Shown: in pieces, positions 1 through 34,219 of the stretch
Layout: each line of letters opens with the position of its first letter
Position numbering within the stretch: position 1 is the first letter of the stretch
Origin: a virus
IMG/VR virus record: IMGVR_UViG_3300022602_000259
Location: 1-34,219 of that record
Reading direction: 5' to 3' (one strand)
Length of the DNA: 34,219 bases
The notes under the pieces: model-generated
The model's input: only the letters and a program-made list of their open reading frames with translations
Databases searched by the model: none
What the model was told of the DNA's origin: nothing
Program-made: the position numbers and the translations under genes

Positions 1-642
1 GATATTGCCTTATATAACGATACTGCTTCCTTAGGCAAATATATTGATATTGGTATTAATTCAAGCGCATTTACAGGAACAGGCAACTTTAGCCTTGCAA
101 ATGCTGGTTATATTTATACAAATGGCGGTGATTTAGCACTTGGAACTTACAGCGCTAATGGTATTCATTTTATTGTAAATAATGGCGCTACTGATGCCGC
201 CACAATTAGTTCGGCTGGTCTTTTAACAGCTAATAGCTTTGCTTCATCATCTGCGGCAATTACTGGTGGTTCAATTAATAGCACACCGATTGGGGCTACA
301 ACTGCCTCTACAGGGGCATTTACTTCTATTTCAGCAACTGGGGTAATTACTTCAACAGTAGCCACAGGAACTGCACCATTTACTGTAGCTAGTACGACCC
401 CTGTAGCCAATTTATCGATTGGCGGTAACGCTGCGACTGCTACTTCAGCAACATCAGCCACCACAGCGACTAATGCTAATAACGTAGCCGTAGCCGATGC
501 CAGCACCAACGCTAACTATTACCCTACTTTTGTAGCTGCTACAGGTAGTAATCAGCCTTTGAAAACAGCATCAACTACGCTAAAATACAATCCATCAACA
601 GGAGCTTTAAGTACAGGCTCAACAATTTATATAGCACCATAA
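1..642 (+). CDS. Long tail fibre, C-terminal part (5' end cut by window edge)
   Basis: Frame 1 is open from the first base to TAA at 640-642, giving 213 residues. The product is rich in Gly, Ala, Ser, Thr and Asn, with short beta-repeat phrases such as NGGDLALGTYSANG and KYNPSTGALSTGS. It reads as the distal part of a trimeric fibre that would sit outside the virion and touch the host. The same phrases (SIGGNAATAT, YNPSTG) occur in the fibre gene running off the other end of the window, so this is probably the end of that gene. Joining the two edges directly is one base out of frame. The next gene follows after nine bases with an AAGGA ribosome site. Confidence 0.85.
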   Translation, partial: DIALYNDTASLGKYIDIGINSSAFTGTGNFSLANAGYIYTNGGDLALGTYSANGIHFIVNNGATDAATISSAGLLTANSFASSSAAITGGSINSTPIGATTASTGAFTSISATGVITSTVATGTAPFTVASTTPVANLSIGGNAATATSATSATTATNANNVAVADASTNANYYPTFVAATGSNQPLKTASTTLKYNPSTGALSTGSTIYIAP

Positions 643-1926: not shown

Positions 1927-2916
1927 ATGACTCAGCCAATTGATATTATTTCTCGTGCTTTAAAAGACATTGGCGCATTAGAAGCTGGTGAAACTCCAAC
2001 ACCAGAAGCTGCTGCCGATGCCTTTGATATGCTTAATGACCTCATAGACCAATGGTCTAACGAGGATATGATGGTATATAACACTACTGAAATCATCTTT
2101 CCTTTGATTCCAGGACAAGTTCAATACACTATTGGCCCTACTGCATCTACCTCTAATTTTATTGGAGCTTCTTTTATAGGCTCTATTACAGGTAATATTC
2201 TTACTGTTACAAGCTTAACTACAGGTGCTGTAGCTCAAGGTCAAACATTAAGTGGATCAGGCATTATTGCCGGAACAAAAATAGTTCAATTTATAACTGG
2301 TGCTGGCGGTCAAGTAAATGAAGTTGGTACTTATCAGCTTAATATTTCTTATCCTACTGCTGTCAGTTCTACCCTAATTACTGCTTATTATCAAAAACCA
2401 TTATTTATTGACCAAGCTTATGTAAGGGTAAATACACAATCTAATGGTCAAGCAGTTCAAAATGGTGGTTTAGACTATCCAGTAGCAATTTTGGCTTTGG
2501 AGAATTACAACCAAATTGGATTAAAGACTTTGAATGGCCCTTGGCCTAAAGCTCTGTATTACAACCCTAATGCAGATCATGGTAATGTGTTTGTATGGCC
2601 CAATCCTAGCCAAGGTGAGATGCATATGTTCTCATCTACTATTTTTAGCAATTATTTAACTTTATATGACAACATAGTGTTGCCACAAGGTTATTCAATG
2701 GCTCTTAGATGGAATTTGGCTGAACGATTAATGCCGATGTATGGCAAAGTAAATGCGACTCAAATAGCCATGATTAATGCTTATGCTGCTCAATCTAAAT
2801 CCACAATTAAACGCAATAATATGATGCCTATTGCTGCTGCTGGATACCCAGATTCAATGCTGGTAGGTAGGGCAAAAGATGCAGGATGGATTCTTTCTGG
2901 TGGCTTCTTTAGATAA
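1927..2916 (+). CDS. P22 gp4-like tail accessory factor (head-completion/portal plug)
   Basis: The product has 329 residues. The N-terminus (IDIISRALKDIGALEAGETP, then AAADAFDMLNDLIDQWSNE) is the helical signature of the P22 gp4 family, the first tail factor to bind the portal after packaging. P22 gp4 is about 166 residues. The extra length comes partly from a beta-rich insertion at residues 83-153, which separates IPGQVQYTIGP (61-71) from the downstream core. The same insertion type occurs in the next gene. The C-terminus keeps the helical segment ALRWNLAERLMPMYGKVN. It lies directly upstream of the gp10-like gene, as in P22-type tail modules. Confidence 0.85.
   Translation: MTQPIDIISRALKDIGALEAGETPTPEAAADAFDMLNDLIDQWSNEDMMVYNTTEIIFPLIPGQVQYTIGPTASTSNFIGASFIGSITGNILTVTSLTTGAVAQGQTLSGSGIIAGTKIVQFITGAGGQVNEVGTYQLNISYPTAVSSTLITAYYQKPLFIDQAYVRVNTQSNGQAVQNGGLDYPVAILALENYNQIGLKTLNGPWPKALYYNPNADHGNVFVWPNPSQGEMHMFSSTIFSNYLTLYDNIVLPQGYSMALRWNLAERLMPMYGKVNATQIAMINAYAAQSKSTIKRNNMMPIAAAGYPDSMLVGRAKDAGWILSGGFFR
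2173..2385 (+). repeat. Beta-rich insertion module, copy in gp4-like gene
   Basis: Residues 83-153 of the gp4-like protein read FIGSITGNILTVTSL, then GQTLSGSGI, TKIVQF and GTYQLNISY. This matches, phrase by phrase, the module found twice in the downstream gp10-like protein. It is an extra domain relative to the P22 protein. Confidence 0.7.
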
Positions 2917-2925
2917 GGTTAAAAA

Positions 2926-5148
2926 ATGGCAGATTTTGGATTTGTTGGTGCATCTTATGAAGCCCCTTCAATATATCAAGATGCTCAGGAATGTATTAAT
3001 TGGTATCCTGAAATCGACCCAACTAAAGCTCAAGGCTCTAGAGGGGTAGTTGCGCTTTATCCTACCCCAGGATTAACTTCAATTTGTGCTTTATATCCAC
3101 AAGCTGAAGTTCGTGGAATGAGAACTGTATCAGGTGGTCAATATATGGTCGCTGTATGTGGCTACTATGTATATGTACTAAATTCTAAATTTACTCCTAC
3201 TATTATTGGTCAATTAAACACTAATACAGGTAGAGTTGGAATTTCAGACAATGGCATAAATGTTTACATAGTAGATGGCACAAATCGTTATACATGGAGA
3301 ATTTCAAATCCTAGTGCTGCTGTATTTCAAGGAACAATATCAGGAACAACCCTTACTGTAACTCGTGTTATTTCAGGAACTATTGCTCCAAATCAAGCTT
3401 TATTTGGTTTTGGAATAACAAATGAAACTGTTATTGTTAGCGGTTCAGGAACTACTTGGACTTTAAATCAAAATAATACTGTTGGAACAGTTGAACAAAT
3501 GAATTCTGCTGCTGTAGCAGGAGTTATTACTGCTTCTATATCAGGAACAACTTTAACAGTTTCTGCGGTTACTAGCGGAACACTATACTCTGGACAAACA
3601 ATCCAAGGCTCTACAGTAACACCAAATACTATTATTACTGCTTTAGGTTCTGGCTCAGTATTAAGCGCATCAATTGCTACTGCTGGTACAGGATATGCTG
3701 TAAATGACACCATAACAGTTTTAGGCGGTGTTTATGGTGCTAGTCCGGCTACCTTTACTGTCACAGCAATTGGAGGATCAGGGGCTGTTTCTACTCTTAC
3801 TGAAACATTCCAAGGTTCATATACTTCTTTGCCTATAAATCCTGCTTCTACTTCTACATCAGGATCAGGAACAGGGTTAACCCTTAATTTAACTTTTGGC
3901 ACAGGTACAGGCAATACAGGTAATTATGTAATCAATAATAGCCAAACTGTTGGCTCTGAAACTATGTATGCGCTTAATTTTAGTGTCATGCCTAGCACAG
4001 ATGGTGCTTTTACTGGTGGTACTGTAGTAGATATTGTGGACAATTACTTTGTTTACAATGACCCAAATACTCAAGAGTGGGCAGCTTCCAATGTTTTAAG
4101 TCCAATTACTTATGGTCTTAGTTATGCTAGTAAATTTACAGGGCCTGATAATCTTGTTTCTTTAGTTTGCGATCATGGTCAAGTTTATCTATTAGGTGAA
4201 AAAACTTCTGAGGTTTGGGCTGATGTAGGAACTTTCCCATTTCCTTTTCAACGAATTCCAGGCAGTTCTAGTGAGCATGGTATTTCTGCACCATTTTCTG
4301 TAGCTAGACTTGGTAATTCTTTTGCTTATTTAGCCAAAAATAATCGTGGTCAAGCTGAAATTGTCATGATGAATGGTTATTTTCCACAAAGAATTAGTAC
4401 TCATGCTGTAGAAAATACTCTTGTAGACCAATATGTAGGCGATGCTGTTTCCTATACCTATCAATTAGAAGGCCATGAAACTTATGTTATTTCATTTCCA
4501 AGTCTTGATTTGACTTGGGCTTACGATATAGCTACTCAACTTTGGCATAAATGGCTTTGGGTAGATAACAATAACGTATATCATCGTCATCGTTCTAATT
4601 GTTCTGCTTTTTTCCAAGGTATAGTTCTAGTTGGAGATTGGCAAAATGGTCAAATTTATCAACTTGATCCTAATAATTACACCGACAATGGCGATACTAT
4701 TCGCAGAGTTCGTAGAGCTCCTCATTTAGTTACCGATCTTCAACGGCAATATTTTGATGAATTTCAAATACAATTTCAGCCAGGAGTAGGAACAACAGGA
4801 CTTTCAAAAAGTGAAGGTACATTTTATGGCAATGATTTAATTATTGCCCCAAGTCAAATTTATTCTATTGGCTCTAATCAAGAAATCATTATTGGTTTAT
4901 ATAATACAGTTAGCCCTTCAATAACTACTACTAATCCCCAAGCCATGCTTAGATGGTCTAATGATGGGGGTTCTACATGGTCAAAAGAATATTGGACATC
5001 AATAGGACAAGCCGGAAAATATCAAAACAGGATTATTTGGCGCAGATTAGGCTGGTCTAGAGATAGAATTTTTGAAGTAGTTGTAACTGATCCTATTAAG
5101 GCGGTTATTGTTTCTGCTAATTTAAAAGCTAGTGAAGGAGATAACTAA
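2926..5148 (+). CDS. P22 gp10-like packaged-DNA stabilisation/tail hub protein with large insertions
   Basis: The product has 740 residues against about 472 for P22 gp10. The N-terminus (APSIYQDAQECINWYPEIDP, 13-32) and ALYPTPGL (43-50) are typical of the family, as are the later beta-propeller-like phrases WAASNVLSP, GEKTSEVW, GISAPFSVARLGNSFAYLAK and WHKW. The protein forms the hub between gp4 and the tail needle in P22. Residues about 134-350 are an insertion of repeated beta modules (two copies of the module in the gp4-like gene, the second split by another domain). After it the core resumes near VDIVDNYFVYNDP (368-380). It starts with ATG nine bases after the gp4-like stop. Confidence 0.85.
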   Translation: MADFGFVGASYEAPSIYQDAQECINWYPEIDPTKAQGSRGVVALYPTPGLTSICALYPQAEVRGMRTVSGGQYMVAVCGYYVYVLNSKFTPTIIGQLNTNTGRVGISDNGINVYIVDGTNRYTWRISNPSAAVFQGTISGTTLTVTRVISGTIAPNQALFGFGITNETVIVSGSGTTWTLNQNNTVGTVEQMNSAAVAGVITASISGTTLTVSAVTSGTLYSGQTIQGSTVTPNTIITALGSGSVLSASIATAGTGYAVNDTITVLGGVYGASPATFTVTAIGGSGAVSTLTETFQGSYTSLPINPASTSTSGSGTGLTLNLTFGTGTGNTGNYVINNSQTVGSETMYALNFSVMPSTDGAFTGGTVVDIVDNYFVYNDPNTQEWAASNVLSPITYGLSYASKFTGPDNLVSLVCDHGQVYLLGEKTSEVWADVGTFPFPFQRIPGSSSEHGISAPFSVARLGNSFAYLAKNNRGQAEIVMMNGYFPQRISTHAVENTLVDQYVGDAVSYTYQLEGHETYVISFPSLDLTWAYDIATQLWHKWLWVDNNNVYHRHRSNCSAFFQGIVLVGDWQNGQIYQLDPNNYTDNGDTIRRVRRAPHLVTDLQRQYFDEFQIQFQPGVGTTGLSKSEGTFYGNDLIIAPSQIYSIGSNQEIIIGLYNTVSPSITTTNPQAMLRWSNDGGSTWSKEYWTSIGQAGKYQNRIIWRRLGWSRDRIFEVVVTDPIKAVIVSANLKASEGDN
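3325..3504 (+). repeat. Beta-rich insertion module, copy A in gp10-like gene
   Basis: Residues 134-193: FQGTISGTTLTVTRVISGTI, then NQALFGFGITNETVIVSGSG and TWTLNQNNTVG. It is uninterrupted and parallels the copy in the gp4-like gene. Confidence 0.7.
3529..3972 (+). repeat. Beta-rich insertion module, copy B, split by a nested domain
   Basis: Residues 202-243 start a second copy (TASISGTTLTVSAVTSGTLY, GQTIQGS, NTIITALGSG). The copy resumes at 327-347 (TGNTGNYVINNSQTVGSETM). Between them, residues about 244-326 hold a different Gly-rich unit (TAGTGYAVNDTITVLGG, then GSYTSLPINP, GSGTGLTLNLTF). The nested order suggests one insertion landed inside another. Confidence 0.6.
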
Positions 5149-31643: not shown

Positions 31644-34219
31644 ATGGCTGGCCCATCTTCAACAGTAGATCAAAATCTACTGCCAGTTCAGGCTTATTTT
31701 GATGTCTATGGAAACTTTCAGACATTTATAGGTCAGGGCCAACCTTTTTTAGCAACTATTAGCCCTATTCAATCAGGGTTAACGATTACCAACAGTACGA
31801 TTAATAGCACCACTATTGGTGCTATTTCTCCTTCTACTGGGGTTTTTACCAATGTTTCAGCAACTACAGGGCAGATTTCTACAACCCCCTCAAATGCTAA
31901 TGACATTGCCAATAAATTCTATGTTGATACTGTAGCGCAGGGTCTTGGCCCAAAGGCATCTTGTGCAGTTGCAACAACTGTCAATATAACCCTTTCAGGA
32001 CTACAAACAATTGATGGGTACACTACCCTAGCTGGCGATAGAGTTCTCGTCAAGAACCAAAGTTCTAGCCAGTTTAATGGCATCTATATTGCATCAGCTT
32101 CAGGATGGACTCGTTCGGTTGATATGGATGTCTGGTCAGAAGTGCCAGGTGCTTACACAGTTATTATTAATGGTGGTCAAGCAGATACAGGTTGGGTTTG
32201 TACCGCATCACAAACAGGCACAATTAATGTAACTCCTATGCCTTGGGTGCAGTTTTCAGGAATTAATACTTATTATGCTGGCACAGGGTTAACCCTTGCT
32301 TCTAATACTTTTAGCATTACTCCTGTAGGAACTGCTGGTACTTATGGCTCTGCATCTGCAGTTTCGGTATTTGTAACTAATGCAAGCGGACAAGTTACTA
32401 GCGTTACTAATACCTCTATTGCTATTGGTGCAAGCCAAATTACTAGCGGAACTATTGCTTCGAGTCTTATATCAGGCCCTTACACAGGTATTACAGGGGT
32501 TGGAACTTTAACCGCAGGTACTTGGAACGCTACCCCTATTGCTAATAGCTATTTGTCAAACTCTAGTATCACTATTAATGGCAACGTAGTTTCTTTAGGT
32601 GGTTCAACAACAGTTACGGCTAATACCCCTAATTCCGTTACTTTTAACAATAGCGGCACTGGTGGTGCAACAGGCACTTCTTTTAATGGTTCTGTAGCGC
32701 AGACTATTTCCTACAATACGATTGGCGCACCTAGCACCACAGGAACGAATGCTAGTGGTACTTGGGGCATTTCTATTACAGGAAACGCTGCCACAGTAAC
32801 TAATGGAGTTTATACAACAGGGTCTTATTCAAACCCTACTTGGATTACATCTATTTTAGGTTCTATCGTTAGCGGAGCAGTTGCTAATGCAACTTTAGCT
32901 GCTAGTGCAACTAACGTAGCTGGTGGAACTACCGGTGCATTGCACTATCAATCAGCACCAGGAACAACTGCCTTTTTATCATTAGGCACTACAAATTATG
33001 TATTAACTGCTGGTGCTACTGCACCGCAATATGTTGCTCAAAGTACGCTTTCTGTAGGCTCTGCCACAACTGCTACGACTTCTACTAATTTAGCTGGTGG
33101 TGTTGCAGGGTCAATCCCTTGGCAATCAGCCCCTAGCACAACAGGATTTACGGCTGCAGGTACTACAGGTCAAGTTTTAACTTCTGGCGGTACAGGTGTG
33201 CCTACTTGGACAACTCCTGTTTCAAATGCAACAGTAACCGATGACACCACTACCAATGGCACTCGTTATCCTTTGTTTGCTAATCAGACAAGCGGAAGTC
33301 TAACAACTGAATATACAAGCTCTACAAAGCTTCAATACAACCCTAGCACAGGGGTATTTACTTCTACGCAATTTAGCGGTTCAGGGGCAGGATTAACTTC
33401 TATTCCAAACTCTGCGTTAACTAATTCAAGCATTACTATTGGCTCTACAGCTATTAGTTTAGGCGGTACAGCAACCACTATTGCAGGTCTGACAAGCGTA
33501 ACCTCGACCACTTTTGTAGGTGCATTAACCGGAAATGCTAGTTCAGCCACTACTGCAACAACAGCGACCAACGCTACAAATATTGCAATTACTGACAATA
33601 CAAGCTCTGTTTCTACTTATTATCCTGTTTTATCCGTAGCAACAACAGGTAACAACCCTGCTACAACAAGCTCTACAAAGCTTAGTTTTGTACCAAATAC
33701 AGGTGTTTTAAGTGCCACTAGTTTTACAGGCGCAGGTACAGGATTAACAGGAACTGCTTCAAGTTTGTCTATTGGTGGAAATGCTGCAACTGCAACAACA
33801 GCAACTTCTGCAACTACAGCTACAAATATTGCTGGTGGTTCAGCCAACCAAATTCATTATCAGACTGCTTCTAGCACTACAGGATTTATTACAGCTCCTA
33901 CAGTTGCAAGCACTTATTTACAATGGACAGGCTCTGCTTTTGCTTGGGCTACTGTTACAAGTGGTGTTACTTCAATATCTGGTACAACCAATCAAATTAC
34001 TGCATCCGCTTCTACAGGCGCAGTTACTTTAAGTTTGCCAACTAGCATAACAACTGGTCAATATATTGCCAATCAATCCATTTCAGGGTCAACAACTCAA
34101 GGTGCTTTTGCTTATGGAACTTTAAATGGTTCTGATACTGGAATATTTGCTTCTTACCAAACTTCTATTGCTGGCTATGCCTACATGGCATTGCAAAATA
34201 CTAGCAGTAATGCCGCCGC
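31644..34219 (+). CDS. Long tail fibre, N-terminal part (3' end cut by window edge)
   Basis: ATG at 31644 opens 858 complete codons to the window edge without a stop. Residues 1-40 repeat the attachment module of the preceding gene (NLLPVQAYFDVYGNFQTFIG). Residues about 88-200 are a known fibre domain (KFYVDTVAQGLGPKASCAVA, then IDGYTTLAGDRVLVKNQSSS, NGIYIASASGWTRSVDMDVW). The rest is a long run of diverged beta repeats (LHYQSAPGTTAFLSLGTTNY; IPWQSAPSTTGFTAAGTTGQ; TSSTKLQYNPSTGVFTSTQF). The start has only a poor ribosome site. With the piece at 1-642 it would reach about 1070 residues and is followed by the S74 chaperone gene. Confidence 0.85.
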   Translation, partial: MAGPSSTVDQNLLPVQAYFDVYGNFQTFIGQGQPFLATISPIQSGLTITNSTINSTTIGAISPSTGVFTNVSATTGQISTTPSNANDIANKFYVDTVAQGLGPKASCAVATTVNITLSGLQTIDGYTTLAGDRVLVKNQSSSQFNGIYIASASGWTRSVDMDVWSEVPGAYTVIINGGQADTGWVCTASQTGTINVTPMPWVQFSGINTYYAGTGLTLASNTFSITPVGTAGTYGSASAVSVFVTNASGQVTSVTNTSIAIGASQITSGTIASSLISGPYTGITGVGTLTAGTWNATPIANSYLSNSSITINGNVVSLGGSTTVTANTPNSVTFNNSGTGGATGTSFNGSVAQTISYNTIGAPSTTGTNASGTWGISITGNAATVTNGVYTTGSYSNPTWITSILGSIVSGAVANATLAASATNVAGGTTGALHYQSAPGTTAFLSLGTTNYVLTAGATAPQYVAQSTLSVGSATTATTSTNLAGGVAGSIPWQSAPSTTGFTAAGTTGQVLTSGGTGVPTWTTPVSNATVTDDTTTNGTRYPLFANQTSGSLTTEYTSSTKLQYNPSTGVFTSTQFSGSGAGLTSIPNSALTNSSITIGSTAISLGGTATTIAGLTSVTSTTFVGALTGNASSATTATTATNATNIAITDNTSSVSTYYPVLSVATTGNNPATTSSTKLSFVPNTGVLSATSFTGAGTGLTGTASSLSIGGNAATATTATSATTATNIAGGSANQIHYQTASSTTGFITAPTVASTYLQWTGSAFAWATVTSGVTSISGTTNQITASASTGAVTLSLPTSITTGQYIANQSISGSTTQGAFAYGTLNGSDTGIFASYQTSIAGYAYMALQNTSSNAA

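Follow-up and report, generated by a model that had tools for sequence, protein, structure and literature searches.

Nested insertion of a small beta module in two adjacent tail-hub proteins of a P22-like podovirus

Two adjacent tail proteins of a P22-like podovirus carry three copies of a small beta module (about 65 to 75 aa), homologous by sequence comparison, and one of these copies is itself interrupted by another domain. The DNA analyzed here (the window, an IMG/VR record of 34,219 nt) contains portal, scaffold, coat, gp4-like, and gp10-like genes, the last two adjoining. One module copy lies in the gp4-like protein and two, A and B, lie in the gp10-like protein, where a domain of about 80 aa, C, splits B. 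Most likely, the inserts decorate the outside of the tail hub, having spread through recombination at the tips of hairpins and been retained under purifying selection. Positions in the window, and the evidence for each feature, are as follows.

1927..2916, + strand: gp4-like head-tail adaptor of 329 aa, which carries the first module (phrog_12985, 4.8e-39; AF2 model against P22 gp4)
2158..2391, + strand: gp4 copy of the module, aa 78-155, flanked in the adaptor beta domain by strands 66-69 and 160-168 (profile, pairwise, HMM-HMM, AF2)
2926..5148, + strand: gp10-like propeller of 740 aa (nozzle/head closure), which carries A, B, and C (phrog_578, 3.6e-91; AF2 model)
3319..3510, + strand: module copy A, gp10 aa 132-195 (pairwise, HMM-HMM, AF2, profile)
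3517..3657, + strand: left portion of copy B, gp10 aa 198-244 (relatives, pairwise, HMM-HMM, AF2, profile)
3658..3897, + strand: domain C, gp10 aa 245-324, nested in B but unrelated to A and B (pairwise, HMM-HMM; likeness to Hoc/head decoration proteins)
3898..3981, + strand: right portion of copy B, gp10 aa 325-352, with which B is completed beyond C (relatives, HMM-HMM, AF2, co-variation, profile)

Both host proteins were confirmed as homologues of P22 gp4 and gp10. The gp4-like protein has about 85 aa more than the phrog_12985 profile that it matches, and its AF2 model aligned with P22 gp4 over 86 residues, skipping the module (Z 11.9), and with the adaptors of phages A4, VP1, and Kp7 over 136 to 166 residues. 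In the model, the gp4-like core has a beta domain between helix pairs, and the module sits inside that beta domain. The gp10-like protein was assigned by profile match to phrog_578, head closure Hc3, and its AF2 model aligned with P22 gp10 over 326 residues at 2.5 Å (Z 33.1). Fiber-like ORFs at the two ends of the window (1-642 and 31644-34219) run past the ends of the record, which resembles a circular map cut in a tail fiber gene; a plain join of the ends breaks the frame of these ORFs. A phage contig of 34,234 bases (L325) comes from a Methylococcales MAG, and the bin has a coat protein 85% identical to that of the window, a hint from binning that a Methylococcales bacterium may be the host.

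A profile of the module run over the window gave exactly four matches (E 5e-27 to 3e-5), at 2167-2388 in gp4, 3319-3510 in A, 3523-3720 in the left part of B, and 3853-3972 in the right part. Local alignment scores were 86 for gp4 against A (z 8.4), 100 for gp4 against B (z 8.5), and 105 for A against B (z 10.1), and in each case 0 of 2,000 composition-preserving shuffles scored as high. HMM-HMM comparison gave probabilities of 99.1% for gp4 and A, 98.8% for gp4 and the rejoined B, and 99.5% for A and the rejoined B. A segment of phrog_21413 (about 396-468) was also matched by both gp4 81-154 and gp10 196-268 (E 5e-10 each). Of the motifs, the closing one is loose (Y-x-[LIV]-N by itself is common), and GxIxGxxLTVT occurs in its strict form only in gp4 and A; the case for homology rests on the whole module and not on motifs. 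A preliminary description of this DNA had placed one module in both proteins, between 2173 and 3972, and had held that the P22 homologues lack it. That observation is confirmed in a stronger form than first stated, and insert-free P22-type relatives exist for both gp4 and gp10.

It could be argued that the three segments are unrelated low-complexity stretches, rich in Gly, Thr, and Ser and alike by composition. Their composition is biased, and domain C, which is similar in this respect, reaches a score of 52 against the modules. However, 52 is the highest score of C against the gp4 module, A, or B and lies at the chance level of the shuffle test, and the HMM-HMM probability of C with any module copy is below 10%, marking C as unrelated and making it a built-in control. 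With z values far above composition-preserving shuffles, profile-profile probabilities near 99%, and an identical predicted strand order in all three copies, likeness by composition is a scarcely credible explanation.

In the AF2 models, each copy opens with a long pair of strands, continues with two short ones, and closes with another long pair (gp4 module, E81-99/106-109/118-125/134-155; copy A, E132-151/157-161/169-174/177-196; copy B, E199-218/225-227/235-239/[C]/332-350), with C placed between the third and last strand elements of B. Confidence in the gp10 model is good over residues 46-360 (pLDDT about 75-95) and lower in the gp4 model (mean pLDDT 70; about 63-90 within the module). When the copies were compared by predicted strand order, as the preliminary description had suggested for their folds, they agreed, and unrelated folds were not seen. 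The nearest solved fold to the gp4 module was a virion chain of Arthrobacter phage Bridgette (8eci_1, Z 6.8), and EF-Tu-domain-II and UBA1-FCCH barrels aligned over 70 to 79 residues at Z 5.6 to 6.6, within the range of common arrangements. The predicted module may therefore bear some resemblance to barrels of the EF-Tu-domain-II/FCCH type, at modest Z values that establish no family. The proposal that it is Ig-like gained no support: Ig, Big, and I-set families gave no Pfam match up to E 5 and none in NCBIfam, and the listed fold matches are the Bridgette chain and the barrels, with no Ig fold among them. Searching PDB sequences with the module profile gave no relative. In a fold search of the BFVD viral models, the gp4 model gave short matches to proteins named HK97 capsid protein and P22 gp10, and with the module included it also matched collagen-repeat proteins of the giant virus Indivirus and a lambda Stf-type fiber protein.

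Relatives on viral contigs preserve a graded series of architectures. Among 270 gp10 sequences with both core parts, in which contigs fetched repeatedly are counted repeatedly, 52 have a short loop and no insert, 63 have A plus an unbroken B, and 140 have A+B[C]; in 5 others, A+B[C[D]], C is in turn split by a domain D. A different guest occupies another hairpin of B in 4 sequences plus 3 larger ones, 2 have other cassettes at the same site, and 1 is a mixed array, with inserts spanning 0 to about 430 aa overall. B can be found whole or split by C, and C can be found split by D, which bears out the insertion within an insertion that had been read from the window. Extra copies in gp4 are likewise nested, in the first module: of 299 sequences, 3 have no module, 255 have one, 38 have two, and 3 have three. 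The gp4 module is kept in all members of the clade, and one subclade that keeps it lacks the gp10 inserts.

The gain of D can be followed between two relatives, L264 and L263, whose gp10 genes are 92% identical in DNA over aligned bases and differ in that D stands, in frame, in place of the twelve-residue hairpin of C, TSIGGSGAVTGL. The in-frame replacement, and the lack of a target duplication at this one clean recent junction, point to recombination and not transposition. In two other relatives (L240:3757-6225 and L210:3757-6015), the gp10 inserts are built from another repeat (VAITGTAGQFSCTAS...VGQTLTISGTLGGTGTITGYTNPT), present once or more and located in the first hairpin of B. In L079, the gp10 loop that elsewhere holds A and B is filled by another cassette, in which two stretches resemble CBM_5_12 (E 1e-5, with a score of 25.9 that falls just short of the Pfam cutoff of 26.2).

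Median dN/dS values of 0.20 to 0.36 in the inserts and 0.09 to 0.21 in the cores indicate purifying selection on all parts, inserts included, with the modules evolving faster than the cores. Across 42 sequences, the left and right parts of B co-vary (r 0.49, Mantel p 0.0005), compared to r 0.26 for C and the left half and r 0.15 for C and the right half. The bootstrap difference from the B halves is clear for the latter (0.10 to 0.57) and borderline for the former (−0.03 to 0.48). Modules in gp4 and gp10 show little co-variation (r 0.08 to 0.20). On a tree of 176 gp10 cores, the presence of inserts changes twice and the full architecture about 10 times, and gain or loss of C accounts for about 5 changes when sequences with different guests are labeled by length as [C]. 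Module copies cluster by site, with one change for A, two for B, three for gp4, and one for the nested gp4 copy on few resolved forks. This clustering suggests little exchange between sites, each of which kept its own copies, and frequent gene conversion between copies is not supported.

In 63 of 268 relatives, gp4 and gp10 are separated by a free-standing endonuclease of the HNH/His-Me type, GIY-YIG-like with NUMOD3, or of the endonuclease VII type (for example, L014:5554-6126, L011:5450-6148, L086:5305-5931, and L070:5494-5892). None is present between gp4 and gp10 of the window. GIY-YIG or HNH types accompany 6 of 11 C[D] or "other" architectures and about 57 of the remaining 257, counts not corrected for phylogeny; as a cause of insert changes, endonuclease presence has no clear link and is kept as a lead. 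The suggestion that these sites are recombination hot spots is therefore upheld in part: architectures have changed repeatedly and homing-type endonucleases are often found at the junction, but copies have stayed at their own sites.

The module also occurs well outside this lineage, in proteins matching tail sheath (phrog_205), baseplate wedge (phrog_438 and phrog_6), protein J (phrog_31), tail fiber (phrog_38233), and other virion structural families (phrog_3287). Neither the module nor C has a family in Pfam or NCBIfam, so a module widespread in phage structural proteins has gone unclassified. Domain C resembles stretches of Hoc/head decoration proteins of Enterobacter and Erwinia phages. 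A tblastn search of annotated phages with the consensus module and the nested gp4 module, queries that the low-complexity filter probably masks, gave no match.

We propose that the module is a small, promiscuous beta barrel, taken up by phages into the hairpin loops of their virion proteins. In the P22-like lineage, one copy would have entered the gp4 beta domain and the A+B pair a loop of the gp10 propeller, and further domains (C, then D, or others) would have been inserted at hairpin tips of the modules themselves. Gain and replacement may have occurred through in-frame recombination between phages at Gly/Thr-rich hairpin tips, and the inserts could act as weak adhesive ornaments that touch host-surface glycans or other outer material during adsorption. 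Taken as a whole, from promiscuous barrel through nested hairpin insertion to outward adhesive ornaments of the tail hub, this reading seems to us about evenly poised between right and wrong. Surface ornaments, already suggested in the preliminary description, are the best reading of the inserts; that they point outward from the hub is what we infer, from the tolerance of 0 to about 430 extra residues and from the same domains in external decoration proteins. The adhesive role, like the recombination at hairpin tips, is less well supported than the outward position. It is favored by the CBM-like cassette of L079, the Hoc match, and the variability of gp10; the first of these counts for less because it comes from a relative with a different cassette, and no carbohydrate-binding family, CBM5/12 included, gave a profile match in the window's proteins.

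Contact with the cell surface or its glycans is the favored role, with fiber docking as its main rival. In T7, the fiber is fitted between small beta-barrel docks of the adaptor (gp11) and the nozzle (gp12), and P22 lacks the dock of the adaptor (PMC6702177). By analogy, inserts in the same two proteins here could enlarge the place between adaptor and nozzle where the tail fiber is held, a structural role. The beta domain of the gp4 core, its longer alignment with the A4, VP1, and Kp7 adaptors than with P22, the location of the module inside that domain, and its retention throughout the clade under purifying selection would all fit a dock. However, inserts in gp10 vary from nothing to several hundred residues and are missing where the gp4 module is kept, the weak co-variation of the two proteins' modules argues against a single joint device, and a dock would be unexpected in the sheath, baseplate, and fiber proteins that share the module. 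We regard docking as possible but doubtful. A purely adhesive role, in turn, does not explain why every clade member has the gp4 module while gp10 may lack inserts, and it is possible that the gp4 module serves docking and the gp10 inserts serve as ornaments.

The inserts might instead be tolerated passengers, foreign domains taken up by hairpin loops through recombination and having little or no function beyond folding well. Very varied guests at the same loops, absence from a subclade, and faster evolution than the cores agree with this, and the junction endonucleases of relatives could drive the exchange. Long retention, with two gain or loss changes on 176 cores, and reuse of the same module in many virion proteins speak against it, as does dN/dS well below 1 in every part, a value that folding constraint alone could give. 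We therefore consider passengers unlikely. A wider reading would make the module a general receptor barrel whose hairpin tips accept domains, with tail-hub surfaces growing by nested insertion and junction homing endonucleases promoting exchange; at present, this extension is a long shot. In any case, inserted domains have themselves become insertion sites, and a single lineage retains the steps between a loop with no insert and threefold nesting. The series provides natural material, in two adjacent core tail proteins, for testing how domains are gained without loss of assembly.

P22 gp4 and gp10 (PDB 8u10 and 8eap) share the adaptor helices, the propeller fold, and the adjacent genes seen here; they are without such inserts, and the window's gp4 core has an additional beta domain. 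The T7 docks are small barrels in the two proteins that bear modules here, but they are described as jelly rolls and no homology to the modules was found, which leaves docking as an analogy. Tailed-phage Ig-like domains, according to the citations of Fraser 2006/2007 in PMC5292684 and PMC9128512, are promiscuous, surface exposed on many virion proteins, and proposed to bind carbohydrates. The module is likewise a promiscuous beta domain of many virion proteins, but it has no Ig-type profile match, has a predicted fold with some resemblance to other barrels, and is inserted in loops and nested. An evoDit is a Dit with a central carbohydrate-binding module for which host-cell binding was measured (PMC9128512). 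Like gp4 and gp10 here, it is a conserved tail protein enlarged by an internal domain, whereas a CBM-like insert occurs here in one relative only. The segment common to phrog_21413 (unknown function) and phrog_38233 (tail fiber protein) contains the module itself, but both are named as whole proteins and not as a module family. Domain shuffling in phage tail proteins is well documented (PMC10684548), and surface decoration of virions by promiscuous domains, such as Ig-like domains and evoDit, is of a known kind (PMC5292684, PMC9128512). What is new is the nested, stepwise growth in two tail-hub proteins, together with the unclassified module, and the inserts are probably a real means by which phages decorate their exterior, though one not entirely without precedent.
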